Assembly: GCA_018661465.1 (NCBI GenBank)
Contig: JABJIC010000028.1
Location: forward strand, 62,001-126,000
Reading direction: 5' to 3'
Length of the DNA: 64,000 nucleotides
Origin: Gammaproteobacteria bacterium
GTDB lineage: Bacteria; Pseudomonadota; Gammaproteobacteria; Pseudomonadales; Pseudohongiellaceae
Under the pieces are notes generated by a model. It did not search any database. It had not been told where the DNA came from and saw only the letters and a program-made list of their open reading frames with translations. Made by a program: the position numbers and the translations under genes. Positions 1,871 to 16,319 of this stretch are shown here, piece after piece; within the stretch, counting starts at the first letter, position 1, and every line of letters begins with the position of its first letter.

Positions 1871-2971
1871 TTAACAAGAGCCTGACATTGAGCTTATCCA
1901 CTGTCGAATCAGGGCAACGCCTTCGGTATGAATTAACGAGCGGCCTAACTCGGGCATCATCTCATCAGGTTTGCTGGACTCCATTCTGTATACCAGAATT
2001 GAATGGTCTGGATCTGAAGGAACAATACTGTATTGCAAATCTCCTGCGCCACCCCCTGCAGCTACTGGCGGTTTGCATAGGCCCATGGAAACATCTATGT
2101 CAGAGGAGCCATCAAGAAACAGGCCGGAAGTGTCTGCGGCACCTTCAGGGTTGTGGCAATGAGCACAATGAATGTTCAAATACGCTAGGGCTCTGTCTTC
2201 GAGACTGGCGGATTCGTCTCTCCAGGATATAGTCCCTTGGTCTGCGGGTTGTGCGTTTAGCCAGCCTTTCTCCAAAATGGTGCTTGTCTGTATTCCAAAA
2301 TCACCACGGGCATCGGAAATGGGTGAAGACAGTTGGCTGGCTATAATGCCTAGTGGTTTCATTTCGCCATCCGGATGATCGGTAGTATGGCAACCTGAAC
2401 ATTGATTTTCATTCGGCACAAAATACATGAAGTCCAGATCTTCATTTTCAGTTTGGAGACTGACTGAGGTGCTGGTTCCTGCTACTCGCAAAAACGCCTC
2501 GGTCTGTTCTTCGTTCCATACATAGGGGAAAGCATCCCAGCCATTTTGCCGATGTACCAGTAAACGGGTCTCGAGCAGTTGGTGGTCGCCTAAGGCTATG
2601 TGTTCGTTTCCGGGGTCAGTGACTTTTACTAGTTGACCCTGGCCATTGCGAGGGTAGTAAAAAGTTTTGCTGATAACGGTTCCCACGGGATATTGAATTT
2701 CCTCGTCTACCAGCTCTGCTTGCAGGCCTTGAGGAATCCAGAGGGTACGCATCTTGTGAGCGTAATCGGTAAATAGTTGATTAGATGGGTGCAGTACCAG
2801 GCTGGCTTCGCTAGGAGTAAGTTCTTCGGTGGAAAGGTCAAACAGTTGCCAGTCGGAAAGGCGCAAGGGTCGCTCCGACTCATGGAATATCGGTGCGGGT
2901 TCTGAGCAGGCAGCAATTAAGATCAAAAGAGCGCCCGCCAAGACAGGCAGGCGCATATGGTGAGTTCTCAT
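1871..2971 (-). CDS. Cytochrome c-like lipoprotein (SO_2930/HNE_0200 family)
   Basis: An exported lipoprotein of 366 residues (ALLILIAACSEP, lipobox Cys near residue 22) with two heme c or heme c-like sites: CSGCH around residue 191 and CAHCH around residue 269. From memory it matches the family called SO_2930 or HNE_0200, which recurs next to a parallel beta-helix protein. That partner is the upstream gene here, and the two overlap by four bases (ATGA at 2968-2971), so they are translationally coupled. The spacing of the two CxxCH motifs and the absence of other redox motifs fit a periplasmic or outer-membrane-facing diheme electron carrier. The physiological role is not established. Family call fairly firm, function uncertain. 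Confidence 0.8.
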   Translation of the reverse strand: MRTHHMRLPVLAGALLILIAACSEPAPIFHESERPLRLSDWQLFDLSTEELTPSEASLVLHPSNQLFTDYAHKMRTLWIPQGLQAELVDEEIQYPVGTVISKTFYYPRNGQGQLVKVTDPGNEHIALGDHQLLETRLLVHRQNGWDAFPYVWNEEQTEAFLRVAGTSTSVSLQTENEDLDFMYFVPNENQCSGCHTTDHPDGEMKPLGIIASQLSSPISDARGDFGIQTSTILEKGWLNAQPADQGTISWRDESASLEDRALAYLNIHCAHCHNPEGAADTSGLFLDGSSDIDVSMGLCKPPVAAGGGAGDLQYSIVPSDPDHSILVYRMESSKPDEMMPELGRSLIHTEGVALIRQWISSMSGSC

Positions 2972-4176
2972 TGCGAAGCGGAGCTAAGAGAAATAACAGA
3001 AAGACTTGGCAGGCTGCACTGATGTACCGAGCTGTCGAAAGAAGGTTCCGCGAAACCATTAGCAGCATCAAGATTTACAAAGCTTGCGCCGCCGTTGTTT
3101 GCAATGCATAGAATTTCTTCTGGCTGCTTGCCTGGAACTACCATGCCGTCCCAAACGATGTCTGGAATGGCCTGTCCGGTTGCTTCTTTGAGCATGTTCA
3201 GCGGTTCTGAGTCCGGGTTCTGACCACCGTTACTGAATTGATTGTCATGAATGTATATGGATTCAGGGAAGGGGTCGTAGTTGGGGTCATCATAGGGAAT
3301 TTCATTGATTAAATAGCTAACTACTAGAGCATGGGCAGTCTGGTTATCGGCAAAATTGTTACCGAAGACTTCGATGCTGTCGTTGGCCAGGACCATTAAG
3401 CCTGTTCCGGCTGGAACGCTACCGACGATATTACCCTCAGGGGCAAAATTTTCTGTGTTGTTGTTAAAAATTTCATTGTCGAATACACGGGTATTACGGC
3501 CGCCCTGCACTGGGAGGTTTGGTAAATCGAATACCAGGATGCCGCCGGTGTTGTTAGTTGCAATGTTGTCGTGGACATCGGCGAAAGTGGAGTTCTCTAT
3601 TTCGATTCCGGCTACATTGTATTCCGCACGTGAATTGCGAACGACGATTTGAGTAGATTGGCCTACATAGATTCCAGCATCTGAAGCGCCTATAGCAACG
3701 GATCCGTCGATTAGCACGTTCTCGGTTTGAACAGGATAAATTCCGTATGCGCCATTTGTTGTTAATGGCCCTGCAGTCCATTCCGTTCTAACTCTGCGAA
3801 TTACCACATTTGTGCTTTCGTTTATTTTTAATGCATCGCCAACGGTATCTTCGATGGCTAGATCCTCAATAACAAAGTCGTCGGCACTAACTAGTAAGCC
3901 TTCAGCTCCTTGAATTTGATTCTTGAAGGAGAGAATGGAGGTGTCCATTCCTTCGCCTCTGATTGTGACACCTGGCACGTTAAGAGAAAGGCTGCGAGTC
4001 ATCTGATGGGTGCCGGCAGGGATATTAATCACGTCCCCTGGCTGAGCCTTGATAAGCTGTTCTTGTAGTGATTCTTCGAAGCTAAGCTCAGGCATTGCAG
4101 GCTCTTCTGAGCCGCAACTGGCGAGTAATAAGCTAAAGATGCTAATGCCTATTAGTCTCTGTGTATTTATTTTCAT
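2968..4176 (-). CDS. Parallel beta-helix repeat lipoprotein
   Basis: An exported 402-residue protein with a lipoprotein signal (ISIFSLLLASCGSEE, lipobox Cys21). The body consists of right-handed parallel beta-helix repeats: runs such as NVVIRRVRTEW, NVLIDGSVAIG, QIVVRNSRAEYN, GIEIENSTFADV and HDNIATNNTGGILVF. It resembles the beta-helix family that recurs beside the diheme cytochrome family encoded immediately downstream; the two genes overlap by four bases. Beta-helix proteins of this kind are often carbohydrate-active or surface structural proteins. I see no clear polysaccharide lyase or pectinase active-site signature, so an enzymatic role should not be assumed. Confidence 0.8.
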   Translation of the reverse strand: MKINTQRLIGISIFSLLLASCGSEEPAMPELSFEESLQEQLIKAQPGDVINIPAGTHQMTRSLSLNVPGVTIRGEGMDTSILSFKNQIQGAEGLLVSADDFVIEDLAIEDTVGDALKINESTNVVIRRVRTEWTAGPLTTNGAYGIYPVQTENVLIDGSVAIGASDAGIYVGQSTQIVVRNSRAEYNVAGIEIENSTFADVHDNIATNNTGGILVFDLPNLPVQGGRNTRVFDNEIFNNNTENFAPEGNIVGSVPAGTGLMVLANDSIEVFGNNFADNQTAHALVVSYLINEIPYDDPNYDPFPESIYIHDNQFSNGGQNPDSEPLNMLKEATGQAIPDIVWDGMVVPGKQPEEILCIANNGGASFVNLDAANGFAEPSFDSSVHQCSLPSLSVISLSSASQ

Positions 4177-5179: not shown

Positions 5180-5995
5180 ATGAAGCTTTATAATAAGAAG
5201 AAAAAAATACACAAGCCATTGTTTATAAAAGTAATATTTAGTATTTTTCTGCTGTTGTCAGTTGGACTTTCAAGTTCAGCCTTCGCGCAGCGGAATAATC
5301 CACTGGAGTTCGATCCGAGAGCGCCTCAAGCAGGTGGACTTATCTTCAGAGCCCAATGTGCTACCTGTCATGGAGCAGATGCCAGAGGAATCAGTACGAT
5401 TGATGCGCCGGATCTAACTCTGATCTGGACCCGTAGCGAAACTACCGATAGCAGTGTGTTCGATATAATTCAGCAGGGAGTTTCCGGCAGTATAATGCCT
5501 CCCCATGGCTTTCCTGACACAGAAATATGGATGCTGGTGAGTTATCTTCGAAGTGTTGCTGTAGGGGGTTCGGTTGAAGCCTTTGAAGGCAATTCCAATC
5601 GTGGACAGCAGCTATTTACGGAGAACTGTTCTCAGTGTCATCGAGCTCAGGGTTTCGGTGGTAGTTTGGGCCCAAGTTTAAATAGTATTACTTCACGACG
5701 AACACAGTCTTCACTTAAAAATTCTGTACGTGCGCCCAGTTCTGCAATTTCGAGACGATTTAAACCTATTGAGATAGTTACTTCCGCTGGGGAGTCTGTA
5801 ACTGGAATACTGAAAGGTGAAGATGCTTTTTCCATTCAAATCATGGATAGCTATCAACAGCTTCGAGCCTTTGAGAAGAATGGCATAACAAATGTACGTA
5901 GAGACCTGCCTTCTCTTATGCCGGTCTTCGACCAGGCCAGCCTCAGTGATTCAGAACTGGATGACATTCTGAGCTTTCTCAATCTCTCTCGTTAA
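5180..5995 (+). CDS. Secreted diheme cytochrome c
   Basis: An exported protein of 271 residues with a signal peptide (a Lys-rich start, a hydrophobic core around residues 15-33, cleavage after AFA). It has two cytochrome c domains: CATCH at Cys60-His64 and CSQCH at Cys150-His154. Likely axial methionines lie in IMPPHGFPD (first domain) and LMPVFDQA (second). It sits 16 bases before a PQQ dehydrogenase gene, so it most likely takes electrons from that quinoprotein, as in other PQQ-alcohol dehydrogenase/cytochrome pairs; the partner assignment is an inference from adjacency. The stretch between the second heme motif and the C-terminal helix (residues 165-250) resembles the insertion found in PQQ-dehydrogenase-associated cytochromes. 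Confidence 0.88.
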   Translation: MKLYNKKKKIHKPLFIKVIFSIFLLLSVGLSSSAFAQRNNPLEFDPRAPQAGGLIFRAQCATCHGADARGISTIDAPDLTLIWTRSETTDSSVFDIIQQGVSGSIMPPHGFPDTEIWMLVSYLRSVAVGGSVEAFEGNSNRGQQLFTENCSQCHRAQGFGGSLGPSLNSITSRRTQSSLKNSVRAPSSAISRRFKPIEIVTSAGESVTGILKGEDAFSIQIMDSYQQLRAFEKNGITNVRRDLPSLMPVFDQASLSDSELDDILSFLNLSR

Positions 5996-6011
5996 CTCAG
6001 GTTTTGAACTT

Positions 6012-7661
6012 ATGAAACACGCAAGATTTTTTATTCGTCCTCTTCATCTGCGGTCTTTGCATGCATTAGTTGCGGGGCTATGTCTGCTTGGCTTAACTGA
6101 AATGAGCTTAGCCCAAGACAGCAGCGGGCCGAGTTATGAGGAAATCGCCGCTGGATTTGCAGACCCAACTCGTTGGTTAACTTATTCGGGAGACTACAGC
6201 GGAAAACGTCATAGCCCATTGACGCAGATCACTTTGGAAAATGTGAAGAACCTCAGGCCTGAATGGACTTTTCAGACTGGCACCACAACCAGAGGTCGAG
6301 GTTTTGAAACTTCGCCATTGGTCGACAACGGAGTGCTCTATGTTACCGGGTCCAATAATTATGCATGGGCGATAGATGCCCGTAGCGGCCGCCGCTTTTG
6401 GCAGTATAGGCGTAATCTTCCCAATGATCTGACCTATGGTGCCAGCGCTCCAGTGAACCGAGGTTTCGGCATGCTGGGGGATCAACTATTCATGGCCACA
6501 CTGGATGCGCATCTGTTGTCATTTGATAGACGTTCAGGGGATCTACTCTGGGATATCGAGCTGGCAGATTATCGACAAGGATATTCGGCAACTCTGGCTC
6601 CCTTAATTGTGAAAGATAAGGTAATTGTTGGGATTTCAGGCGGGGAGTACGCCACTCGAGGATTTATCGACGCCTTTGATCCAGAAACAGGTGAGAGGCT
6701 CTGGCGTTTTAATACCATCCCGGGCCCAGGCGAACCTGGTAGTGAAACCTGGCCCGATGATCCAGACATATTGGCGCGGGGCGGCGGTGGAACCTGGATG
6801 AATGGCAGCTATGATCCTGAGCTGAACCTGATCTATTGGGGAGTGGGTAACCCGAACCCTGACTACTACGGTGATTCTCGTCCCGGAGACAATCTCTATT
6901 CCAACTCTTTAGTTGCTCTGGACGCAGATACCGGCGAGCTTCGGTGGCATTATCAGTTTACGCCCCATGATCTAAATGACTGGGACTCCAATCATATGCC
7001 GGTTCTAGCGGATGTGGATTGGCACGGTGAGCAGCGCTCCGTAGTGATGGTTGGCAATCGTAATGGCTTCTTCTATGTGCTCGATCGAATAACCGGGGAA
7101 TTACTGTTAGGAACACCTTTCACTGCAACCAGTTGGGCTCGAGAGCTCGATGACGATGGCAGACCTATAGTGCTAAACGATGGCAGTGAGGGCTGTGTGC
7201 CTGACCCTTGGGGAAGCACCAATTTCATGCCTCCCTCCTACTATCCGGAGCTGGGGCTGTTTTACCTCACAGCGAGGGAAACCTGTGCGACCTTTGTTCC
7301 CGAGGAGCCTCAGCTGGTTCCGGGGCAGGCTTCATTCGGTGGCGTGATATTTATCGATGAGGAGCCAAGCTACGGTGCGCTCAGAGCGCTGGATATTGAG
7401 ACTGGTGATCTCGAATGGGAATTTACCTATCCCTCACCTACATTTGGTGGAGTAATGACTACAGCTTCAGGTCTGGTTTTTGCCGGAGACCACGAGGGTA
7501 ATTTCATGGCTTTCAATGCTCGGACAGGTGAGAATCTATGGCATTATCAGACTGGTTCCCGAATCTGGGGAGCGGCAGCAGTGACACATATGCTGGATGG
7601 TCGCCAATATGTACTGATAGCAGCAGGTACTACGCTTACGGCGTTTGCTCTGCCGGAATAA
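6012..7661 (+). CDS. PQQ-dependent dehydrogenase (quinoprotein, alcohol dehydrogenase type)
   Basis: A 549-residue secreted eight-bladed propeller (signal peptide ending LTEMSLAQ). Family hallmarks: SGDYSGKRHSPLTQI near the N-terminus, repeated tryptophan-docking blade motifs (LDADTGELRWHYQ, LDRITGELL, LDIETGDLEWEF, FNARTGENLWHYQ) and the active-site region GNPNPDYYGD followed by HDLNDWDSNH, which carries the presumed catalytic Asp. The vicinal Cys-Cys ring found under PQQ in many methanol and ethanol dehydrogenases is absent; only isolated cysteines occur. There is no heme c domain in the protein, so electrons must leave through a separate cytochrome, plausibly the product of the gene 16 bases upstream. 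Substrate unknown. Confidence 0.92.
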   Translation: MKHARFFIRPLHLRSLHALVAGLCLLGLTEMSLAQDSSGPSYEEIAAGFADPTRWLTYSGDYSGKRHSPLTQITLENVKNLRPEWTFQTGTTTRGRGFETSPLVDNGVLYVTGSNNYAWAIDARSGRRFWQYRRNLPNDLTYGASAPVNRGFGMLGDQLFMATLDAHLLSFDRRSGDLLWDIELADYRQGYSATLAPLIVKDKVIVGISGGEYATRGFIDAFDPETGERLWRFNTIPGPGEPGSETWPDDPDILARGGGGTWMNGSYDPELNLIYWGVGNPNPDYYGDSRPGDNLYSNSLVALDADTGELRWHYQFTPHDLNDWDSNHMPVLADVDWHGEQRSVVMVGNRNGFFYVLDRITGELLLGTPFTATSWARELDDDGRPIVLNDGSEGCVPDPWGSTNFMPPSYYPELGLFYLTARETCATFVPEEPQLVPGQASFGGVIFIDEEPSYGALRALDIETGDLEWEFTYPSPTFGGVMTTASGLVFAGDHEGNFMAFNARTGENLWHYQTGSRIWGAAAVTHMLDGRQYVLIAAGTTLTAFALPE

Positions 7662-7868
7662 GCCTCAGACATGGACTTTGAGCGATTTGGCTCATATTCT
7701 TCAAGGCTGAATTGTAAGATTATGTGATTTGTGGGTGAAAATGCCCTAGAACCGTAAGAATTTGCGCTAAACTCTGAGCACTCATTAGCAGAAAGCCTAT
7801 AGATTCTCTGCTTCAGACTTATAAGCTAAAGATCAAAAAATAAGAACGAACTTCCTGGAGGAAAAACA

Positions 7869-9335
7869 ATGCTAGCCAGAAAACTTCTTTCACTTCTCTC
7901 AATTGCCGGGCTTGCGTTCCCTGTATTGGTTTTCGCACAGGCTCACGATGCCAGCATCGCTAACCACCAGCCTCATTATTATGACGCTGCAGATTTCGAT
8001 ATCGATTCTGCCAACGTCAACTATGCTGATCATATAGCCCCCATTTTGCAGCGCAGCTGCCAGAGCTGTCACCGGCCAGGTGGCGGTGGGCCGATGTCAT
8101 TACTGACATACGATCAGGTTCGTCCATGGGCCCCAGTCATCATGTATCGAACTGCTATTCGAGACCGCATGGGAGCCATGCCTCCATTCTTTGTTGAGAA
8201 GGACATGGGTATCGATGGCTTTAAAGATGACTATTCTTTGTCTGATGTGGAATTAGCTCTGATTCAGGCTTGGACAAATAACGGTGCTCTCAGAGGTAAC
8301 CCTGACAATGAGCCCGAGCCACTTCAGTTTAGTGATGGCATCGATTGGGCTCTTGGCGAGCCGGAGCTGATTCTACGCTCCAGCGATCAAACCCGACCTG
8401 CGATTGGTCCGGACTGGTGGGGTGACATAGGTCTTGTGCCAACGGGCTTAACCGAAGACCGTTATGTAAAATCTGTCGAAGTTCGTGAAGTGAATAACAT
8501 TCCTGTTGAAGAAAGCACGAGCACAGTGGGCGGGCGTTACGTCTTTCATCATATGACCTACAGCAGTGGCATATTGAATGAGGATGGCACCGCAATTGAC
8601 CCTTCCACTCGAGTGAGCTGGCCTATTCATGAGATAGGCCGCAACGCGGATATCTTTTCCGAGAAGGCTGGTCGCTTATTGGCAGCAGGTTCCGCACTGC
8701 ATCTGGGCGCTGCCCATATGCATTCAAATGGTCGTGAAACAACTGGCCACCTGGAATTTGGCATTACCTTCTTTCCTCGAGGTTATGAGCCTGAATACAG
8801 GCATAACGGACCTCGAACAGGTAATGGCATCGATCTGGATATCGTGCCGAACAAGGCAGGACAGGAAGTACATAACTATGTGGTGTTACAGCAGCACACC
8901 AAGATTATGGCCTTTGAGCCGCACTTGCATGCGCCTGGTGTGCGCATGTGTCTGGAAGCAATCTGGGGACATAACAACTTCACCCTTAACTGTGTTGGCT
9001 ACGACCATAATTGGGTGAAGCAATATGTGTACGAGGACGATAAGGCTCCGCTTCTTCCGAAAGGTACCATATTGCACACTATAGCCTACATGGATACTAC
9101 TGCTGCCAATCCTAATCTTGCCGATGCTCGAAACTGGGGCGGTGCTGGACGTCGTTCGGTTTCCAATATGTTTATCGATCTGGGTTATTCAGTTAACCTA
9201 ACAGAAGAGCAATTTCAGGCGGAGATGGCGAGCCGTCGAGCGTTAATGGAAGATAGAAATGATTATGATCCGGGCTGTCCGCTTTGCTGGGCGCCGGAGC
9301 CTGTTTATTCCAATGTTGCACAGGGAAATGATTAA
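7869..9335 (+). CDS. Cytochrome c fused to a PHM-like copper monooxygenase domain
   Basis: A secreted 488-residue protein with a signal peptide (cleavage after VFAQA). An N-terminal heme c site, CQSCH (Cys64-His68), is followed by a domain whose His/Met positions follow peptidylglycine alpha-hydroxylating monooxygenase: His227-His228 in YVFHHMTYSS, His278 in ALHLGAA, His352 and His354 in PHLHAPGV, and Met434 in SVSNMFIDLGY. Spacings (50, 74 and 80 residues) parallel PHM (64, 70 and 70). Copper type II monooxygenases use two coppers, O2 and a reductant to hydroxylate C-H bonds; here the heme domain could supply electrons. The next gene starts 2 bases later, so the two are coupled. A GGAGG-like Shine-Dalgarno precedes the ATG. 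Substrate unknown; the copper assignment is by pattern, not alignment. Confidence 0.75.
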   Translation: MLARKLLSLLSIAGLAFPVLVFAQAHDASIANHQPHYYDAADFDIDSANVNYADHIAPILQRSCQSCHRPGGGGPMSLLTYDQVRPWAPVIMYRTAIRDRMGAMPPFFVEKDMGIDGFKDDYSLSDVELALIQAWTNNGALRGNPDNEPEPLQFSDGIDWALGEPELILRSSDQTRPAIGPDWWGDIGLVPTGLTEDRYVKSVEVREVNNIPVEESTSTVGGRYVFHHMTYSSGILNEDGTAIDPSTRVSWPIHEIGRNADIFSEKAGRLLAAGSALHLGAAHMHSNGRETTGHLEFGITFFPRGYEPEYRHNGPRTGNGIDLDIVPNKAGQEVHNYVVLQQHTKIMAFEPHLHAPGVRMCLEAIWGHNNFTLNCVGYDHNWVKQYVYEDDKAPLLPKGTILHTIAYMDTTAANPNLADARNWGGAGRRSVSNMFIDLGYSVNLTEEQFQAEMASRRALMEDRNDYDPGCPLCWAPEPVYSNVAQGND

Positions 9336-9337
9336 GC

Positions 9338-10333
9338 ATGAAAAGCGTTAAGCAGTTAATTTCCGAATATTTGATGGCCCCGGCATTGTTAGTGATGGTA
9401 ATGCTGGTGTTGTTGATGAGTGCCTCTGTTGCAAATGCCCAAGGGCGATTTATGCAGCGCACTGGTGAAATCACTTCTCCAGCCTATGAAGGCTGGTGGC
9501 CCGCAGACGATGGTGGCTACACTTTGTTCTTCGGCTATATGAATTCCAATTGGGAACAGGAGTTCGATGTCCCAATTGGCTCGAGCAACTATTTTAGTAT
9601 CGTGGAATCGGGTGAATTGGATGATCTTGGGGCAGACGGCTATGATTTTTCCCAATCAGATCAGGGTCAGCCCACTCATTTTTACCCTCGACGCAATCCA
9701 TTCTTGTTTACCATTGATGTGCCAGCGGATTTCGGTACTGATGAGGTGGTGTGGACTCTGGTTACTCAGGGCCATCTGGCGCGAGCTTACGGTTCACTCA
9801 AGGCAGACTATCGCATCGATCCTCAGGTGATTTCTACCGAGGTTGGCGGTTCATTTGGTTCTCTCGATGATCGCTTGCGAACTAATATTCCGCCAGAGTT
9901 GCGAGTAGAAGGAGAGTCATTTCGTTCAGCACGTGTTGGTCAATCAATGGACTTAGCTGTTATCGCCAATGATCCCGATAATTTGCCAGCACGTTCAAAT
10001 CGAGCAGTTCCCAGCACGCCGGACCGGATATATCGACCACCTTCATCGATAACAGCCCAGTCCGGTCCCGGACTGCGTTTTTCATGGACTATTTATCGCG
10101 GCCCTGCAGATAGAGCCACGTTTAATCCAGTTCAGATGAAGACCTACACAGATACTCGTGTCTACGCTAATTCTCCTTGGTCACCTCCCTTCACTATCCC
10201 GGAAGTGCCTGAAAATAATCGCTGGGAAAGCACGGTAACTTTCGATGAACCTGGTGAATATGTATTGCGCGGCATAGCCAGTGATGGCTCGATGTTCACC
10301 TACCGAAATGTAACGGTAACAGTTACTCGCTAG
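9338..10333 (+). CDS. Conserved secreted protein, companion of the monooxygenase
   Basis: A 331-residue exported protein (hydrophobic N-terminus with cleavage after VANA). It starts two bases after the stop of the PHM-like gene, so the two are almost certainly made together. Distinctive conserved-looking stretches are YTLFFGYMNSNWEQE, DQGQPTHFYPRRN and VVWTLVTQGH. I recognise this as a recurring secreted family of unknown function in bacteria rich in such enzymes. The C-terminal part (about residues 255-330) looks like an all-beta, immunoglobulin-like domain (VTFDEPGEYVLRGIASDG). No catalytic motif is apparent; a substrate-binding or structural role is possible. Confidence 0.75.
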   Translation: MKSVKQLISEYLMAPALLVMVMLVLLMSASVANAQGRFMQRTGEITSPAYEGWWPADDGGYTLFFGYMNSNWEQEFDVPIGSSNYFSIVESGELDDLGADGYDFSQSDQGQPTHFYPRRNPFLFTIDVPADFGTDEVVWTLVTQGHLARAYGSLKADYRIDPQVISTEVGGSFGSLDDRLRTNIPPELRVEGESFRSARVGQSMDLAVIANDPDNLPARSNRAVPSTPDRIYRPPSSITAQSGPGLRFSWTIYRGPADRATFNPVQMKTYTDTRVYANSPWSPPFTIPEVPENNRWESTVTFDEPGEYVLRGIASDGSMFTYRNVTVTVTR

Positions 10334-10348
10334 TACGAGGAATTTCAT

Positions 10349-10384
10349 AAAAAGGCGGTGTTGGGTTCGACACTGCCTTTTTAT
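10349..10384 (+). terminator. Rho-independent terminator
   Basis: An 11-base stem with a single G-T mismatch (10351-10361 with 10370-10380) closes an 8-base loop and runs into a short T tract. It begins about 15 bases after the stop of the monooxygenase companion gene and ends that transcription unit. Confidence 0.75.
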
Positions 10385-10597
10385 TGAGTAGGATTCCTCT
10401 CCATCCCGGAATCACATAGGGTTAATCGAGTTGCCCCTAGGCTTCTTGGTCTGCATTCCTTGCTCTGTTGGTCAGAGTAGCTTATCTCTTAAGCTCATTG
10501 AAATTATTTGTATTGTCTTCCGGTCTGATGATTAACTGGAGGTCGCTTACTGCTGTTGCGATCCTTATAACACTAGTTCTGCGGGGGAATCAGACTA

Positions 10598-12031
10598 ATG
10601 CGCATAATGAAAGAATCGAGCATATGGAGCCAGGCTTTTCGTTACCTTCTGCTTAGTGGTTTTTTGCTTCAGGGAGCGGTTTCTTACGGGCAGCAAGCAA
10701 CTCTCAGTGGAGACACATTGAGTCTTCCTGTAGTTCAGGTGGGGGATCAGGTTTTTCGTGTAAGTCTCACTCTGGTAACTGGCACCGATCCATTGCAGTT
10801 TCAATTTTCCAGTGCTGATGAGTTAACAGATGCTGACATATCAGAAGCCAGTACTTTTAGCGGCGCAACACTTTCCGTGCCAAGCATAATTGCCGGCGGA
10901 GTTTCTTACTGGGCAGAATTTACGCTGATAAGTGAAGCCCCTGTTCTATTTTCACTAGCAGGCGGTGGAGTAATAGCCGACGGGGGAGGTTCCAGCTGTA
11001 TGCGCCCGGAACCTGATCCCAGCAATGGCATAGATAACCCACTGGTTATTGCCAATGTTTCGGTGCCTGCGGCAGAGATTATCCAAGGGGCGGCAGGTCC
11101 CGATGCAATTCCTGCAATTGAGTTTCCTTTATTTACTCAGGATTTTGATTCAACGGGAATTCAACAAAACGAATTGGTAGTAGGTGTAAAAATTGGTGAT
11201 GAGGTGCGTGCCTATCCCCACGAGGTCCTCGATTGGCATGAAGTAATCAACGAGCAATTTCAGTTTGAAGGACAGGAGCAGGCTTTTACTTTGAGCTATT
11301 GTCCTTTGACGGGCTCGGCAATGATGTGGAAAGGATTTTCCGAAGCGACTGACAAGACATTTGGTACATCCGGCTTCCTCTATAATTCCAATCTCGTCAT
11401 GTATGATCGAGAGACCCAAACACTGTGGTCTCAGATGCTCGAGCAGGGAATTGCGGGACCGGATATTTTGCGCATTCCAGAGAAATTCCAGGTTGTTGAG
11501 ACTACCTGGGGAACCTGGTCAGCGATGTATCCCGAAACTACTTTGCTCACGAGTAATACCGGTTTTAGCAGGCCTTATGGATCTTACCCCTATGGCAATT
11601 TCAGACAGGATAACTCTCTGCTATTTGAGGTGGACAATTTGTTGGATGACCGCCTCCACAGAAAGGAAAGAGTTCTAGGTATTACTGTAGGCCAGGCGTC
11701 CAAAGTTTACCCGATAAGCCGTTTCCCCGCGGCAATTACCACTATTAATGAGCGAGTAGGAGATATGGACATAGTGGCAACCGGAAGTTCCAATCAAAAC
11801 TTTGGTGTTGCCTTTAATCGTCAGTTGGAAGATTGCACAGTTTTGGATTTTACACCTGTCGAAAATCAATTGCCTGTAGTGATGCAGGACAATGAGGGCA
11901 ATCAGTGGGATGTATTTGGAACGGCCGTTACTGGGCCACGGACAGGAACGCAGTTGCAGAAGACCAATTCATTCGTCGCTTACTGGTACGCCTGGACAGC
12001 TTTCTTTCCAGGGGCAGAAATACAGCCATGA
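10598..12031 (+). CDS. Secreted DUF3179 domain protein
   Basis: A 477-residue exported protein with an N-terminal signal (FLLQGAVSYGQQA). Residues about 30-115 form a repetitive beta-rich leader with paired phrases (SLPVVQVGDQVFRVSLTL and SVPSIIAGGVSYWAEFTL). The DUF3179 domain follows from about residue 150, with its hallmarks GVKIGDEVRAYPHEVLDWHE, SYCPLTGSAMMW, TSGFLYNSNLVMYDRETQ and WSQM. The conserved Cys in SYCPLTG is present. DUF3179 has no established function. The downstream gene overlaps by four bases (ATGA, 12028-12031). A GGGGGAA Shine-Dalgarno supports the start. Confidence 0.85.
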   Translation: MRIMKESSIWSQAFRYLLLSGFLLQGAVSYGQQATLSGDTLSLPVVQVGDQVFRVSLTLVTGTDPLQFQFSSADELTDADISEASTFSGATLSVPSIIAGGVSYWAEFTLISEAPVLFSLAGGGVIADGGGSSCMRPEPDPSNGIDNPLVIANVSVPAAEIIQGAAGPDAIPAIEFPLFTQDFDSTGIQQNELVVGVKIGDEVRAYPHEVLDWHEVINEQFQFEGQEQAFTLSYCPLTGSAMMWKGFSEATDKTFGTSGFLYNSNLVMYDRETQTLWSQMLEQGIAGPDILRIPEKFQVVETTWGTWSAMYPETTLLTSNTGFSRPYGSYPYGNFRQDNSLLFEVDNLLDDRLHRKERVLGITVGQASKVYPISRFPAAITTINERVGDMDIVATGSSNQNFGVAFNRQLEDCTVLDFTPVENQLPVVMQDNEGNQWDVFGTAVTGPRTGTQLQKTNSFVAYWYAWTAFFPGAEIQP

Positions 12032-12969
12032 AGACTGTTATGAAAACTATCCTGATATCGCTAAGTTTGTTTGTGTTACAGATGGCATCCACAAGTAGCA
12101 GCTTTGCGGCGACTTGTAGTTGTGCCGGAGTGCCGCTATTAAGCGCTATGGATACTTCCTCCACTCAGCCTGGAGATCTCTACCTGAATTACAGCACAGA
12201 AATTCACGAGATGAGTGACCTCGTTCAAGGTAGCGACGAGATCAGGGATGAGACTGGCTTGTCCAGATCTTCAGTATCCCAGGTAATCTCAGCCAGTTAT
12301 GGACTAGCTGACAAATGGACGGTTTCAGGTCTTATATCTTATATCGAGCATGAACGTAGCGTTGGTATCAGCGCATTTAGTAAAAATTCATCTTCAGGGC
12401 TGGGGGATGGAGTATTGCTATTACGCTATACGCCTTTCTACATAACTCCTTTCTCCCGCCATGAACTTAGTTTCGGCGCTGGGGCGAGGCTGCCCATAGG
12501 TAAAGATGATGATGGTGGCCTTTTTACTCTGTCGGAAGATATGCAGCCCAGTAGCGGGTCTGTGGGTGAGATATATTGGAGCAGCTATAGCTACGCGTTC
12601 AACCAAGCTGCTACCGTACAGTTCAATGTGTCAGCAAACTACACAATAAACGATGATGAGAACAGCAGGAAATATGTCTTTGGTGATGAAATAAATTTCG
12701 CCCTCGGAATCAGTCAGAATATTGGTAGCAAATTTGCTTATTCAGCGGGTCTTCGATATCGACAAACTACTGCTGACGAGAGGAACAGCTTTGAAATCCC
12801 AAATACGGGAGGGAAGTGGTTGGATTTTGTACCTGGGGTTCAATATATATTCAATGATAAATTGAGTGTCGGCGTATCGGGCCGAGTACCACTGGTCAGA
12901 GATCTCGATGGTGTTCTGCAATTCACAACAAGTTATTCATATGCGGTAAATCTCAGCTATGCTTTCTAA
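12028..12969 (+). CDS. Outer-membrane beta-barrel (porin/transporter-like) protein
   Basis: A 313-residue exported protein. The start at 12028 (ATG overlapping the upstream stop) is preferred over the longer frame from 11905 because the signal peptide (KTILISLSLFVLQMASTSSSFAA) begins there. The mature N-terminus carries a Cys-x-Cys-Ala-Gly motif (CSCAGVPLLSAMD). The remainder alternates short amphipathic beta strands and turns and ends in aromatic YAVNLSYAF, a terminal Phe typical of outer-membrane barrels. The next gene overlaps by 11 bases. The order DUF3179, barrel, TlpA-like suggests a coupled envelope unit. What passes through or binds to it is unknown. Confidence 0.75.
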   Translation: MKTVMKTILISLSLFVLQMASTSSSFAATCSCAGVPLLSAMDTSSTQPGDLYLNYSTEIHEMSDLVQGSDEIRDETGLSRSSVSQVISASYGLADKWTVSGLISYIEHERSVGISAFSKNSSSGLGDGVLLLRYTPFYITPFSRHELSFGAGARLPIGKDDDGGLFTLSEDMQPSSGSVGEIYWSSYSYAFNQAATVQFNVSANYTINDDENSRKYVFGDEINFALGISQNIGSKFAYSAGLRYRQTTADERNSFEIPNTGGKWLDFVPGVQYIFNDKLSVGVSGRVPLVRDLDGVLQFTTSYSYAVNLSYAF

Positions 12970-13453
12970 AACATTTCTTTGTATCTGCGCTTCTTTTCTA
13001 CTGACCTTGCCTGCTCTTGCCCAGGAAGAAGGTGAATTGGCGATTGATTTTAGTGGAATTGAATTAACTAGAGGAGATACCATCACTCTGTCCGATTATC
13101 GAGGGAGAGTGGTCTTCGTGGATTTCTGGGCATCATGGTGTCTTCCTTGTTTAGTATCTTTGCCTGCCTATGAAAAGATACGCAATGAGCTGGGTACAGA
13201 ACAGTTCGAAATCATTGCCATTAACGTGGATGAGAATACCGAAGACGGATTGGAGTTTCTTGAGGACAATCCAGTATCCTATCCCGTGATCGCTGATCCT
13301 GAAGGTGAAATTGGCATACCCTATAAAGTTCGCAGTCTACCGGTTTCTTATTTGATCGATCAGCAGGGCGAAGTTGTAGCTTCTTATCGGAGTTTCAGTC
13401 CGGGCGATGAGGTAGAATTGAAGAGACAAATTCAATCTCTATTCCTGCCTTAG
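12959..13453 (+). CDS. TlpA-like periplasmic thioredoxin-fold oxidoreductase
   Basis: A 164-residue exported thioredoxin-fold protein of the TlpA/ResA type. The signal peptide (LCICASFLLTLPALAQ) precedes an AhpC/TSA-like domain. The redox motif is Trp-Cys-Leu-Pro-Cys (Cys61, Cys64) within FWASWCLPCLVSLP, and the cis-Pro loop is SLPVSYLID. Such proteins reduce disulfides in the periplasm, often of apocytochromes or copper-site proteins. Given several cytochromes c and a copper enzyme in this cluster, a role in their maturation is plausible but inferred. It overlaps the barrel gene by 11 bases, implying coupled translation. Confidence 0.88.
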   Translation: MLSKTFLCICASFLLTLPALAQEEGELAIDFSGIELTRGDTITLSDYRGRVVFVDFWASWCLPCLVSLPAYEKIRNELGTEQFEIIAINVDENTEDGLEFLEDNPVSYPVIADPEGEIGIPYKVRSLPVSYLIDQQGEVVASYRSFSPGDEVELKRQIQSLFLP

Positions 13454-13625
13454 GTTTTTTCTGAATTAAGCTCACCTGATTACCTCAAGCTCCTTCCCTC
13501 TCGTTGCTTCTCTATTCATTGCAATAGCCAATCTACTGTTTTAATCTGCAATGCCTGTTCAGATTTGTATCTGCCAGTTCAGGTATTAACAAGGCTGGCT
13601 TATATCCTAATGGAGTTCAATCCTG

Positions 13626-14708
13626 ATGAATAATCACAGACACAATATCCCAATGACTCTGATCTCTCTGCTGAGTGGCTTCGCTGTATTAGCATTCTCA
13701 ACTGTGGCCCTCGCACAATTGGAGCCGATAAATGTCCGGCCTAATCCGTTTTCTTCCGTTGATGGTTGGGTGAACCTTCCGGCCGCCAGAGAATGGGGGT
13801 CTACGGCGGGCGTGGATATCGACCCCGATGGCAGACATCTCTGGGCGATAGATCGATGTGGATCAAATAGCTGCGCAGGATCAAACCTGGATCCCATTCT
13901 CAAGATAGATCCTGAAGGCAATGTGGTTGCTGCCATTGGTGGTGGCCTTATGTTGTTTCCCCACGGTTTGCATGTGGACCGAGATGGCAATATTTGGGTG
14001 ACCGATGGTCAGGGACCTGATCCCTCTAATCCCAATACAAATGGCATGGGTCATGCGGTATACAAATTGAGCCCAGAGGGAGAGCTCTTGTTGACCTTGG
14101 GGCAGCCCGGAGTGGCAGGTGATGGTAGCGATGCCTTGCTCGAAACACCATGTGATGTCGTCACCGATGCAGATGGCAATATCTATGTGGGTGATGGTCA
14201 CAGCGGTCAGAACGAAAATGCGACACCTGACACTGTAGCCAGAATCGTAAAATTCGATCGCAATGGAAACATGATTAAATATTGGGGAGGGTGGGGTTCC
14301 AATGCCGGCCAATTAAAGACTCCACACGCTCTGGATATAGATTCACGGAATCGCTTGATCGTTGGTGATCGTGGTAATAACCGCTTACAGATTTTTGATC
14401 TAAACGGAAACTATATAGGTGAATTCAAGTCTTTCAGCCGACCAAGTGGCATCTACATTACTGATGACGACACAATTTATGTGGCGGATTCGGAGTCCGA
14501 GTTTGATGATACGAGAAACCCGGGTTGGCATGCAGGGATCCGGGTTGGCAGTTTGCTGGATGGCATTGTGGATTACTTCATTGATGGAACCGTAGAAGCT
14601 TACCCCGAAGGATCTAATCCAGAAGGAGTTGCTGTTGATTCTTCAGGCAATGTTTTTGGCGCAGTAGTTTCCGGCGGTGGTGCCATGGTGAAATCCTCGA
14701 GACGTTAA
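13626..14708 (+). CDS. Secreted NHL six-bladed propeller, PAL-like
   Basis: A 360-residue exported NHL-repeat beta-propeller (signal ending TVALAQ) resembling peptidyl-alpha-hydroxyglycine alpha-amidating lyase (PAL). Motif comparison from memory of rat PAL: Arg77 in AIDRCG corresponds to Arg533, His113 in LFPHGLHVD to the zinc ligand His585, His234 in TPHALDID to His690, and Arg249 in GDRGNNR to Arg706. However, the catalytic Tyr654 position is His192 (DGHSGQ), and the third zinc ligand His786 is Glu333 (SNPEGVAVD). It may therefore have altered chemistry or be non-catalytic. It lies 4.3 kb downstream of the PHM-like gene, after a terminator and a 172-base gap, so it probably has its own promoter. 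Confidence 0.75.
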   Translation: MNNHRHNIPMTLISLLSGFAVLAFSTVALAQLEPINVRPNPFSSVDGWVNLPAAREWGSTAGVDIDPDGRHLWAIDRCGSNSCAGSNLDPILKIDPEGNVVAAIGGGLMLFPHGLHVDRDGNIWVTDGQGPDPSNPNTNGMGHAVYKLSPEGELLLTLGQPGVAGDGSDALLETPCDVVTDADGNIYVGDGHSGQNENATPDTVARIVKFDRNGNMIKYWGGWGSNAGQLKTPHALDIDSRNRLIVGDRGNNRLQIFDLNGNYIGEFKSFSRPSGIYITDDDTIYVADSESEFDDTRNPGWHAGIRVGSLLDGIVDYFIDGTVEAYPEGSNPEGVAVDSSGNVFGAVVSGGGAMVKSSRR

Positions 14709-14759: not shown

Positions 14760-15155
14760 ATGAAATTAACAAAAGGGTTTAGAGAATTGGTGGCTGAGGC
14801 TGAAAGTGAAATCAATTCCTTGGATACTCATTCGGTTGATTCGAAGTTGCAGTCAGGAGGGAGTGGCTTACTTCTTGTCGACCTTCGTGATGTAAGAGAA
14901 GTAAAGCGAGAGGGGAAAATCTCTGGCTCCATCCATATACCCCGCGGAATGCTCGAATTCTGGATTGATCCTGAGAGTCCTTACTACCGTAAGGAATTTG
15001 ATGATGCCCAGGAGATAATCCTTTACTGCAATAAGGGATGGCGCTCAGCGCTGGCGGCACAAAGCCTGAAGAGAATGGGGGTGGAGAATGTGTCTCATAT
15101 GGCTGGGGGCATGGAATTATGGGTCAAAGAGATAGGCCGTATAGAGGAAAATTAG
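14760..15155 (+). CDS. Rhodanese-like domain protein
   Basis: A 131-residue single-domain rhodanese. The active-site loop Cys-Asn-Lys-Gly-Trp-Arg-Ser starts at Cys90 (IILYCNKGWRSALAA), and the acidic DLRDVREV motif lies at about residues 41-48. No signal peptide is visible, so it is cytoplasmic unless carried by a partner. Rhodaneses transfer sulfane sulfur or act as sulfur carriers. It starts 51 bases after the PAL-like gene on the same strand, with an AGGGAG Shine-Dalgarno. Its role in the cluster is unknown. Confidence 0.85.
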   Translation: MKLTKGFRELVAEAESEINSLDTHSVDSKLQSGGSGLLLVDLRDVREVKREGKISGSIHIPRGMLEFWIDPESPYYRKEFDDAQEIILYCNKGWRSALAAQSLKRMGVENVSHMAGGMELWVKEIGRIEEN

Positions 15156-15227
15156 CCTCTACCCTAGACGCTGGCACTGCACTCTGGCTATGATGTCCCG
15201 ACTTCCCAAGCTCAGAGATTCACAGTC

Positions 15228-16319
15228 ATGAAATCAAGAATAAGCCACGGTCCACTTCATTCCGACGCTATCGACCATACTAAACGCTCCCTTCTTAAGG
15301 CCTTACCGGCTTTCGCTCTGGCTCCAACAGTATTTGCTCAGGGCAGCAATTCTCCAATTCAAGTAAGGAAACTCCATAGCTTCGGCCTCAGAGTGTCTGA
15401 TGTCGATCGTTCCCTCAAGTTTTATCAGGACATATTTGGCTGCTCAATACAGTCCCGGCAAGGGGACACTGTATGCTTGCAAATTGGCGACGGGCCAAGA
15501 TTTTTCTCACTTTCACCAATGCGTTCAGGCGAGCAGCCTGGATTTAGTCATGTTGGGTTGAGTGTTGAGGATTTTGACTTAAATGCTGTCAGTGATCAGC
15601 TCGCTGCATTTGGCATTGAGCCAACAAATCGAGCAGGTCCGCGTCAGGCTTCTTTGGATGTTGCACTGCGCTCTTGGGTTTCCACTCGAGGAGAGGATAG
15701 GGGGGGCGCATCCTCAGGGACGCAGGAATTGTTTTTTGCTGATATTGAAGGGTTGATATATCAATTGTCACCGGAAGATCATTGCGGCGGCAGTGGCGCC
15801 ACTGGCTCGCTATGCCAAGCTGTGGAGCCTGCTCCCGATTCTGGCCTTTTTCGTACTATCGACCTAAATCATTTTACTAACTTCTTAGCAAATAATGGGC
15901 GCGCGAATCAATTTTATACACGGATTTTCGGGAAATCTTATCAAGCTTATCAAGGGCCAACTTCCCCTATCGTAGGTGTTGGTGATGGCAAGCAATTTCT
16001 TATGTATGTTGGCGGCTCTCAGGAAGGAGCACCAACGAATCCTGGAAGAGTCGATCACGTAAGCCTCTCGATTACAGATTTTGATGTCGCTGACATACTT
16101 GCCAAGCTAACAGGCTATGGCTTGTCTGCGAGAGCAGATGGTGAAACCGACCCACTGCAACATTGGGTTAGCATGCGCATGCCTAATCGTGGCGGTATCG
16201 AAGGGGGCACTCCGGAAGTGTATTTTTCTGATCCGGATGGCATACGAATTCAGGTGCAAGATGATAGTTACTGCGGTGGTGGTGGTTATCTTGGAGATGA
16301 TTGCTCAGCTCCGGTTTAA
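15228..16319 (+). CDS. Exported VOC (glyoxalase/dioxygenase-fold) protein
   Basis: A 363-residue protein with two VOC modules: about residues 45-180 (KLHSFGLRVSDVDRSLKFYQD) and about 210-350 (DLNHFTNFLANNGRANQFYTRIFG). The start KRSLLKALPAFALAPTVFAQG looks like an export signal with a single Arg and a preceding Lys, so Sec or a weak Tat signal. The VOC fold includes extradiol dioxygenases and glyoxalases, and metal ligands are usually His/Glu; candidates are His53 or His214 and Glu in the GTPEVYFSDPDG strand. An exported VOC protein is unusual and fits the extracytoplasmic theme of this cluster. Substrate unknown. Confidence 0.78.
   Translation: MKSRISHGPLHSDAIDHTKRSLLKALPAFALAPTVFAQGSNSPIQVRKLHSFGLRVSDVDRSLKFYQDIFGCSIQSRQGDTVCLQIGDGPRFFSLSPMRSGEQPGFSHVGLSVEDFDLNAVSDQLAAFGIEPTNRAGPRQASLDVALRSWVSTRGEDRGGASSGTQELFFADIEGLIYQLSPEDHCGGSGATGSLCQAVEPAPDSGLFRTIDLNHFTNFLANNGRANQFYTRIFGKSYQAYQGPTSPIVGVGDGKQFLMYVGGSQEGAPTNPGRVDHVSLSITDFDVADILAKLTGYGLSARADGETDPLQHWVSMRMPNRGGIEGGTPEVYFSDPDGIRIQVQDDSYCGGGGYLGDDCSAPV

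Follow-up and report, generated by a model that had tools for sequence, protein, structure and literature searches.

The DNA analysed here, referred to as the window, is a stretch of 64,000 nucleotides (G000:C17:62001-126000) from a gammaproteobacterial genome of 3.26 Mb with a completeness of 97.7%. At positions 5180-14708 it contains a run of genes around a predicted copper protein with a fused cytochrome domain. The open reading frame (ORF) list places all of them on the plus strand in the order diheme cytochrome c, quinoprotein, PHM-like protein, unnamed partner, DUF3179 protein, barrel, TlpA-like protein and NHL propeller. Signal-peptide-like N-termini of the products were judged by eye. 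An initial annotation of this DNA, made from the sequence alone, proposed that the PHM-like gene (7869-9335) and the PAL-like propeller gene (13626-14708) form a split, heme-linked counterpart of the animal peptide-amidating system PAM. Both ORFs are found at these coordinates, 4.3 kb apart, and the neighbours it named (diheme cytochrome, quinoprotein, DUF3179, barrel and TlpA-like genes) are present as well. The gene at 9338-10333, which is the steadiest neighbour of the hydroxylase, was absent from that annotation.

The gene at 7869-9335 encodes a heme c/PHM-fold copper protein of 488 amino acids, presumed to be a monooxygenase. It has a CXXCH motif for heme c attachment (C64, C67, H68; 8058-8072), CuH-type ligands H227 and H228 (8547-8552) and H283 (8715-8717), which correspond to PHM H107, H108 and H172, and CuM-type ligands H352 and H354 (8922-8930) and M434 (9168-9170), which correspond to PHM H242, H244 and M314. 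The copper ligands were equated with those of PHM by sequence order and motif. PHM residue numbers 240, 242, 244, 314, 316 and 318 were verified against PDB chain 5wm0, and the assignment of H107, H108 and H172 to the first copper site agrees with the titles of PDB entries among the Foldseek matches. Conservation was followed in an alignment (A2) of 56 rows, window included, whose members are 60-80% identical to the window protein save for three distant paralogues, and in the 18 PHM-like ORFs of its own genome, again with the window protein among them. In the alignment, C67 and H68 of the heme site, H227 and H228 of the first copper site and H352 and H354 of the second are invariant (56/56), and C64, H283 and M434 are each kept in 55 of the 56 rows. 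In the own-genome ORFs every heme and copper position is kept in 18/18, except H352 and H354 (17/18). M104 is a candidate sixth heme ligand, and all ten listed heme and copper positions are intact in 17 of these 18 ORFs. The six ligand positions and the heme domain that the initial annotation had recognised are present, and the heme and copper ligands are nearly invariant. The deviating paralogue (L016:13815-15521 on G000:C33) has lost the HxH ligands, with R and N in their place, keeps the remaining positions and adjoins two tandem intact copies. A C-terminal CPLC motif (C470, C473; 9276-9287) is kept in 53 of the 56 alignment rows but in only 5 of the 18 own ORFs.

The predicted structure matches DBH and PHM chains before any other fold in Foldseek, with human DBH (PDB 4zel, E 1.3e-07) as the top match, which agrees with the two-domain PHM/DBH fold and with the PHM-like domain of the initial annotation. 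By sequence, PHM kinship gave no match with phmmer or with a profile against the PDB, nor did a profile of six redoxin-type and other paralogues match PHM. With hhalign against a PHM fragment there was likewise no PHM match (probability 0.3 and 1.1 per cent). In Pfam, nothing but a cytochrome match below threshold (24.4 bits, cut-off 27) was returned for the protein, and NCBIfam gave no match. Among ten paralogues scanned, one exceeded the gathering score of the Pfam family Cu2_monoox_C. We therefore draw the kinship from the fold, the ligands and such bridging paralogues, and not from a sequence profile: as modelled, the window protein is a bacterial protein related to PHM and DBH, the copper hydroxylases of animals, and has a cytochrome c domain fused to it. 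Its putative substrate site differs from that of PHM. The residues Arg240, Asn316 and Tyr318, which we take to form the substrate-carboxylate site of PHM, are replaced by E350 (E in 53/56 rows), I436 (I in 52/56) and L438 (L in 53/56).

For gene neighbourhoods, the loci of the best 80 of at least 544 matches to the PHM-like gene were taken. All 80 are from metagenome-assembled genomes (gammaproteobacterial, Gemmatimonadota, Acidobacteriota and one labelled Cyanobacteria), and they were divided into a gammaproteobacterial set of 51 loci (L029-L077, L088 and L101) and another set of 29 loci that includes one gammaproteobacterial record (L083). In the window, the gene for the partner protein (9338-10333, 331 amino acids) starts 2 nucleotides past the stop codon of the hydroxylase. 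A partner homologue lies directly downstream of the PHM-like gene in 73 of the 74 loci with more than 600 nucleotides of room, and L097, counted as the sole miss, also carries the partner with its ORF start called far upstream. These adjacent pairs span records of Gammaproteobacteria, Gemmatimonadota and Acidobacteria, among others. The window-type hydroxylase is accompanied more steadily by this protein than by the propeller. Pfam and NCBIfam scans of 9338-10333 gave no match. The predicted model (pLDDT 80.4) has Ig-like beta domains, and Foldseek returned only generic Ig-like matches with TM-scores of 0.17-0.27 by query length and a root-mean-square deviation (rmsd) of 13-24 Å in 49 of 50 rows. 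With no specific match among them, a function taken from the fold of the partner was rejected.

Upstream of the hydroxylase lie the genes for a diheme c-type cytochrome (5180-5995) and a quinoprotein dehydrogenase of the pyrroloquinoline quinone (PQQ) type (6012-7661). The cytochrome has CXXCH motifs at residues 60 and 150, matches the Pfam families Cytochrome_CBB3 and Cytochrom_C and scores 86 bits against TIGR02603 (cut-off 68.15). The quinoprotein passes the cut-off of family TIGR03075 (516.1 bits against 480.05), and its closest PDB relative is 6zcv, a quinoprotein ethanol dehydrogenase. Its residues E212, N280, D323 and D325 (6645-6986), which we take to be metal and PQQ ligands, align with the same letters in 6zcv. 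Together with W262 and, further on, R350, they are identical in all 49 quinoprotein copies (the window and 48 homologues above 900 bits). A vicinal cysteine pair was not present in the quinoprotein. The window thus holds an intact-looking PQQ-type quinoprotein despite the fact that pqqC was not found in its own genome. Among the gammaproteobacterial loci with room, 41 of 46 have the quinoprotein upstream of the hydroxylase, and 39 of 44 have the diheme cytochrome there. Both are also upstream in five loci of Gemmatimonadales, Gemmatimonadota and Longimicrobiales (L078-L081 and L091).

On the other side of the pair, genes of a TAXI-type tripartite ATP-independent periplasmic (TRAP) transporter often follow. 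Of 37 gammaproteobacterial loci that extend 4 kb or more beyond the partner, 24 have a gene for the binding protein, directly next to the partner in 21, and 23 have a DctM permease; these counts are based on one representative per cluster identified by Pfam. Bioorganic acids are described as cargo of TRAP transporters (PMC10942642). A different TAXI-type gene, encoding a solute-binding lipoprotein (NMT1_3, 294 bits), lies at 785-1774 on the minus strand of the window and is not the counterpart of the TRAP gene that follows the partner.

The NHL beta-propeller (13626-14708, 360 amino acids) is PAL-like, with an altered set of PAL residues, and is optional at the locus. Over residues 44-240 its best PDB match is rat PAL (3fvz, E 2.6e-13). 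TRIM/Thin NHL domains come ahead of PAL in full-length searches, in which several repeat matches add up; since PAL is first over residues 44-240, they were rejected as the nearest kin. In the PAL alignment, H113 falls on H585, H192 on Y654 and H234 on H690 (numbering counted on 5wm0), and E333 is at the place of PAL H786, where two paralogous propellers with all PAL-type residues have His. Two of the three zinc histidines (H585 and H690) are thus kept, the third is E333, and the catalytic Tyr654 is His192. R77, H113, H192, H234, R249 and E333 do not vary across the 18 rows of the propeller alignment (A4), and H192/E333 are common to seven of nine propellers examined from the own genome. R77 and R249, invariant in these nine, are by motif candidate counterparts of PAL Arg533 and Arg706. 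Likeness to PAL, as put forward in the initial annotation, extends to the best match over residues 44-240 but not to Y654 and H786.

The linkage of the propeller to the locus is loose. Of 37 gammaproteobacterial loci with more than 7 kb, 17 have it downstream in the same orientation; none of 18 loci of the other set does, and two of these (L080 and L091) have it on the opposite strand. In a panel of 38 genomes, 25 of the genus (own included) and 13 representing one other family of the order each, the PHM-like, partner and propeller families are all in the same 25 genomes. The window-type propeller was found in 10 of the 25 genus genomes (at least 693 bits; next match 472), and in nine of these ten it is within 8 kb of the window-type partner gene, which itself is present in 21 of the 25, once as a fragment. 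From this, the propeller depends on the locus and the locus does not depend on the propeller; since it is mostly at this locus where present, it may be accessory. Three of the 13 propellers in the own genome have a PHM-like gene no more than 10 kb away (binomial P 0.10). The expectation that the two families co-occur in related genomes thus came true at the level of genomes, but they are not steadily linked at the locus.

Gene order, predicted fold, ligand conservation and co-occurrence describe a recurring set of genes. We think it about evenly balanced whether they form a cytochrome-linked oxidation module with a PHM fold, in which a periplasmic hydroxylase and its partner are coupled to alcohol oxidation and acid uptake. 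The location of the module, its catalytic and redox steps, the way in which electrons flow, the task of the partner and the class of substrate would then be as follows. The core would be a two-protein oxygenase outside the cytoplasm, made of the heme c/PHM-fold enzyme and its Ig-like partner. Electrons would reach the two coppers from other cytochromes through the enzyme's own c heme, which would replace ascorbate. The copper pair would activate O2 and hydroxylate an aliphatic C-H bond of a small periplasmic substrate, and the PQQ-type dehydrogenase could oxidize the resulting alcohol. The diheme cytochrome may accept the electrons of the quinoprotein and pass them either to the hydroxylase, in a redox-balanced loop, or to a terminal oxidase. 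Such a balance is attractive because hydroxylation consumes two electrons and alcohol oxidation yields two. The TAXI-type TRAP transporter that adjoins many related loci may import the acid product, and the PAL-like propeller and the DUF3179, barrel and TlpA genes would be optional additions.

Several results weigh against this module. For the PHM and DBH matches with E values of at most 0.001, Foldseek gives an rmsd of 6.5-14.7 Å, the loop before M434 (residues 418-433) is poorly modelled (pLDDT under 50), and no sequence profile ties the window protein itself to PHM, Cu2_monoox_C of Pfam giving no match. The presence of the hydroxylase and partner families in the same 25 of 38 genomes, and their absence from the same 13, does not set the partner apart, since the propeller family (E 1e-30) has an identical distribution. 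In the own genome the partner family is beside the PHM-like genes in 8 of 15 loci. It was not found beside the redoxin-type copies there, except at L016, where three copies share one, and among 18 tested neighbours of the remaining and other own-genome loci none was recognised as a partner. The partner therefore belongs to the window type and its nearer relatives and not to the whole family. The TAXI binding-protein gene is found in none of the other set's 29 loci, and in the window no TRAP permease follows the partner gene. In the same set only 9 of 28 loci have the quinoprotein upstream and only 5 of 26 the cytochrome. The own genome gave no pqqC match (6 of 24 same-genus genomes did), which would mean either that PQQ is imported or that the quinoprotein is empty. 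These last points would fit a different view, in which a cytochrome-fed hydroxylase works with its Ig-like partner while quinoprotein and diheme cytochrome make up an electron-transfer unit of their own that merely shares the locus, perhaps with a PQQ-free quinoprotein. The score of the quinoprotein against TIGR04528 ('acido-empty-quinoprotein group A'; 528.8 bits), slightly above its TIGR03075 score but below the cut-off of 650 of that family, points in the same direction. We consider such an independent unit rather unlikely, as the PQQ and metal positions are identical in every quinoprotein copy compared, and the gene precedes the hydroxylase in most gammaproteobacterial loci and in some of Gemmatimonadota.

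Doubt could also be raised about the oxygenase itself, if the PHM-fold domain were catalytically dead and served as a copper-binding, sensing or storage domain on a cytochrome. The own-genome paralogue without the HxH pair shows that the scaffold can survive without the second copper site. Both copper sites and the heme are complete, however, in the other 17 own ORFs and in nearly all 56 alignment rows, as expected of a working enzyme, and we regard a dead domain as improbable. A split PAM would let the window PHM-like protein hydroxylate a glycine-extended peptide or an N-acylglycine and the window propeller cleave the product like PAL. The PHM fold, PAL as the best PDB match over residues 44-240, the retained R77, H113, H234 and R249 and the position of the window-type propeller at this locus in nine of the ten genomes that have one are in line with it. 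But E350, I436 and L438 stand where PHM has R240, N316 and Y318, both PAL Y654 and H786 are replaced, 20 of 37 gammaproteobacterial and 18 of 18 other loci gave no downstream propeller on the same strand, and the three own-genome propellers near a PHM-like gene are too few to depart clearly from chance. With residues, linkage and chance clustering all tested, a split PAM is not supported at this locus and seems most improbable to us. Of the system proposed in the initial annotation, the PHM-like fold, the copper ligands, the heme fusion and the redox cluster remain, while PHM and PAL as a stable pair do not; its caution that the substrate need not be a glycine-extended peptide fits the results. 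For the window we therefore keep to the oxidation module of hydroxylase and partner as the favoured reading.

A more suitable PHM/PAL candidate was found on contig C32 of the same genome. Here, a propeller with the PAL-type R/H/Y/H/R/H set (L019:9184-10377 on G000:C32) lies between two redoxin-heme-PHM genes, and the set is kept in all 25 C32-type propellers aligned. At the places of PHM R240 and Y318, one of the flanking types has R and Y in each of its 13 aligned intact members; the other has G and F in the nine aligned. Further neighbours in the cluster (L019:5620-18332) are a HupE/UreJ-like gene, an endonuclease, an amidohydrolase and a penicillin-amidase-like gene. The C32-type propeller was searched in 24 genomes, 16 of them of the genus (own included). 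Thirteen genus genomes have a match above 700 bits, with a PHM-like gene within 10 kb in 11; in the remaining two the match is on short contigs (L119, 6.8 kb; L120, 12.7 kb). When second copies are included, 14 of 19 regions from the genus search have a PHM-like gene and five do not (L110, L111, L119, L120 and L124). In Acidobacteria, Gemmatimonadota and relatives, 18 regions from 13 genomes, several of them short stretches, have a PHM-like gene only in L141. The C32-type propeller profile gave a match at E 1e-50 in 17 of 17 genomes searched, each of the 18 stretches from other phyla has the full PAL residue set in at least one propeller copy, and a HupE/UreJ-like membrane protein gene is beside the PAL-complete propeller in six of these 18 (L128, L129, L130, L132, L135 and L138). 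In the PDB search with the C32-type propeller, PAL ranks behind TRIM/Thin NHL domains (rank 13, E 1.2e-07). As a side observation, L135:1-6641 has five PAL-like propeller ORFs in a row, three with the full residue set and two without it. Judged by its residues, C32 would be a better PHM/PAL candidate than the pair in the window, with PHM linkage almost only in this lineage. It stays a lead, because the C32-type cluster of a Pseudohongiella record (L143) and 17 of the 18 stretches from other phyla have no PHM-like gene.

The PHM-like family is expanded where it occurs. The 18 ORFs of the own genome are in the stretches around its 21 matches, and six of them carry a redoxin-like domain at the N-terminus. 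Each of the 24 same-genus genomes gave between 11 and 32 matches; no match came from 13 further genomes that represent 13 other families of the order, one genome per family. In the class sample, 4 of 185 genomes, own included, gave a match at E 1e-20. All 17 carrier genomes reached through the loci have 8 to 45 matches each; these genomes, three of which are gammaproteobacterial, were picked as carriers. All match numbers are upper counts, since matches can be split. These data could suggest, tentatively and with the greater chance that it does not hold as a whole, a large bacterial family of ascorbate-free PHM-fold hydroxylases with their own c heme, multiplied to 8-45 matches per carrier genome in marine gammaproteobacteria, Acidobacteriota and Gemmatimonadota, whose copies would be oxidation units outside the cytoplasm. 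As part of the same tentative picture, the window type would combine hydroxylase and partner with a redox-balanced loop of PQQ dehydrogenase and diheme cytochrome and with acid uptake by TRAP. It would thus parallel, with a PHM fold, the couple of methane monooxygenase and methanol dehydrogenase and would act on dissolved organic matter, and the C32 branch, with the PHM substrate residues and the whole PAL set, would be a bacterial cluster for oxidative N-dealkylation. Expansions of catabolic enzyme paralogues have been proposed for SAR202 (PMC10444878, PMC5395668, PMC6946804). The genera HTCC2089 and those of Pseudohongiellaceae are called little studied in another paper, which discusses their monooxygenases, mostly labelled as cytochrome P450 (PMC8371827). 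Among the records listed for broad terms in the open-access literature, preprints excluded, none was on cytochrome-fused bacterial PHM-like enzymes, which does not prove their absence.

The remaining genes of the locus are variable cargo or flank it. They encode a DUF3179 protein (10598-12031; PF11376), an outer-membrane barrel (12028-12969; Phenol_MetA_deg, 32.4 bits, cut-off 22), the start of which was chosen by eye (the ORF list gives 11905), and a TlpA/ResA-like thioredoxin (12959-13453; Pfam and NCBIfam). The three were seen together in L029, L030 and L062 of the 80 loci. Rhodanese and VOC-family genes (14760-16319, plus strand; Pfam) flank the variable region; homologues of the two lie no more than 7 kb from the partner gene in 24 and 22 loci, respectively. 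Upstream of the run, a lipoprotein-like gene pair lies on the minus strand (1871-4176), one with two CXXCH motifs and the other a right-handed beta helix with a NosD match. A window scan, which was not used in the analysis, gave promoter-like sites at chance level (15 seen, 17.4 expected) and 15 terminator-like sites, with 9.7 expected (standard deviation 3.0).

The animal enzymes PHM and DBH depend on ascorbate, and the long electron transfer between their two coppers is puzzling. A tethered heme c would allow electrons to be delivered from a defined donor and thus give a direct handle on this copper-to-copper transfer. The copy numbers suggest that some marine and soil bacterial lineages rely on this chemistry, and since the window protein has no copper-monooxygenase match in Pfam or NCBIfam, annotation based on profiles can miss the family. 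If the substrates are dissolved organic compounds, the module would represent an unrecognised route of aerobic carbon turnover, similar in shape to the expansions of catabolic paralogues that have been proposed for SAR202.

Compared with known systems, the window protein shares about 10% identity with rat PHM (PDB 1phm, 1sdw, 6ala), below Pfam detection, and differs from it by the fused c-type heme domain, the missing Arg240, Asn316 and Tyr318 and the Ig-like partner. DBH has a DOMON domain and uses ascorbate as reductant, whereas the window protein has a CXXCH cytochrome domain in comparison with the human enzyme (PDB 4zel). With rat PAL (PDB 3fvz) the window propeller has two zinc histidines out of three in common, and its two arginines are putative counterparts by motif, but it has His192 for Tyr654 and Glu333 for the zinc ligand His786. 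The quinoprotein shares its metal and PQQ positions with the lanthanide- or calcium-dependent PQQ alcohol dehydrogenases of the 6zcv type and passes TIGR03075; D325 is presumably the extra Asp that marks the lanthanide types. It differs from them in that it has no vicinal cysteine pair and that pqqC was not found in its genome. Couples of a copper monooxygenase and a PQQ dehydrogenase are known from particulate methane monooxygenase with methanol dehydrogenase and from fungal PQQ dehydrogenase with lytic polysaccharide monooxygenase. Coupling within the first of these couples is under discussion, and the proposed loop resembles it. As in those couples, an extracytoplasmic copper-dependent hydroxylation would be followed, or fed, by a quinoprotein and a cytochrome. 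Unlike them, the predicted oxygenase of the window has a PHM/DBH fold and its own tethered heme c.

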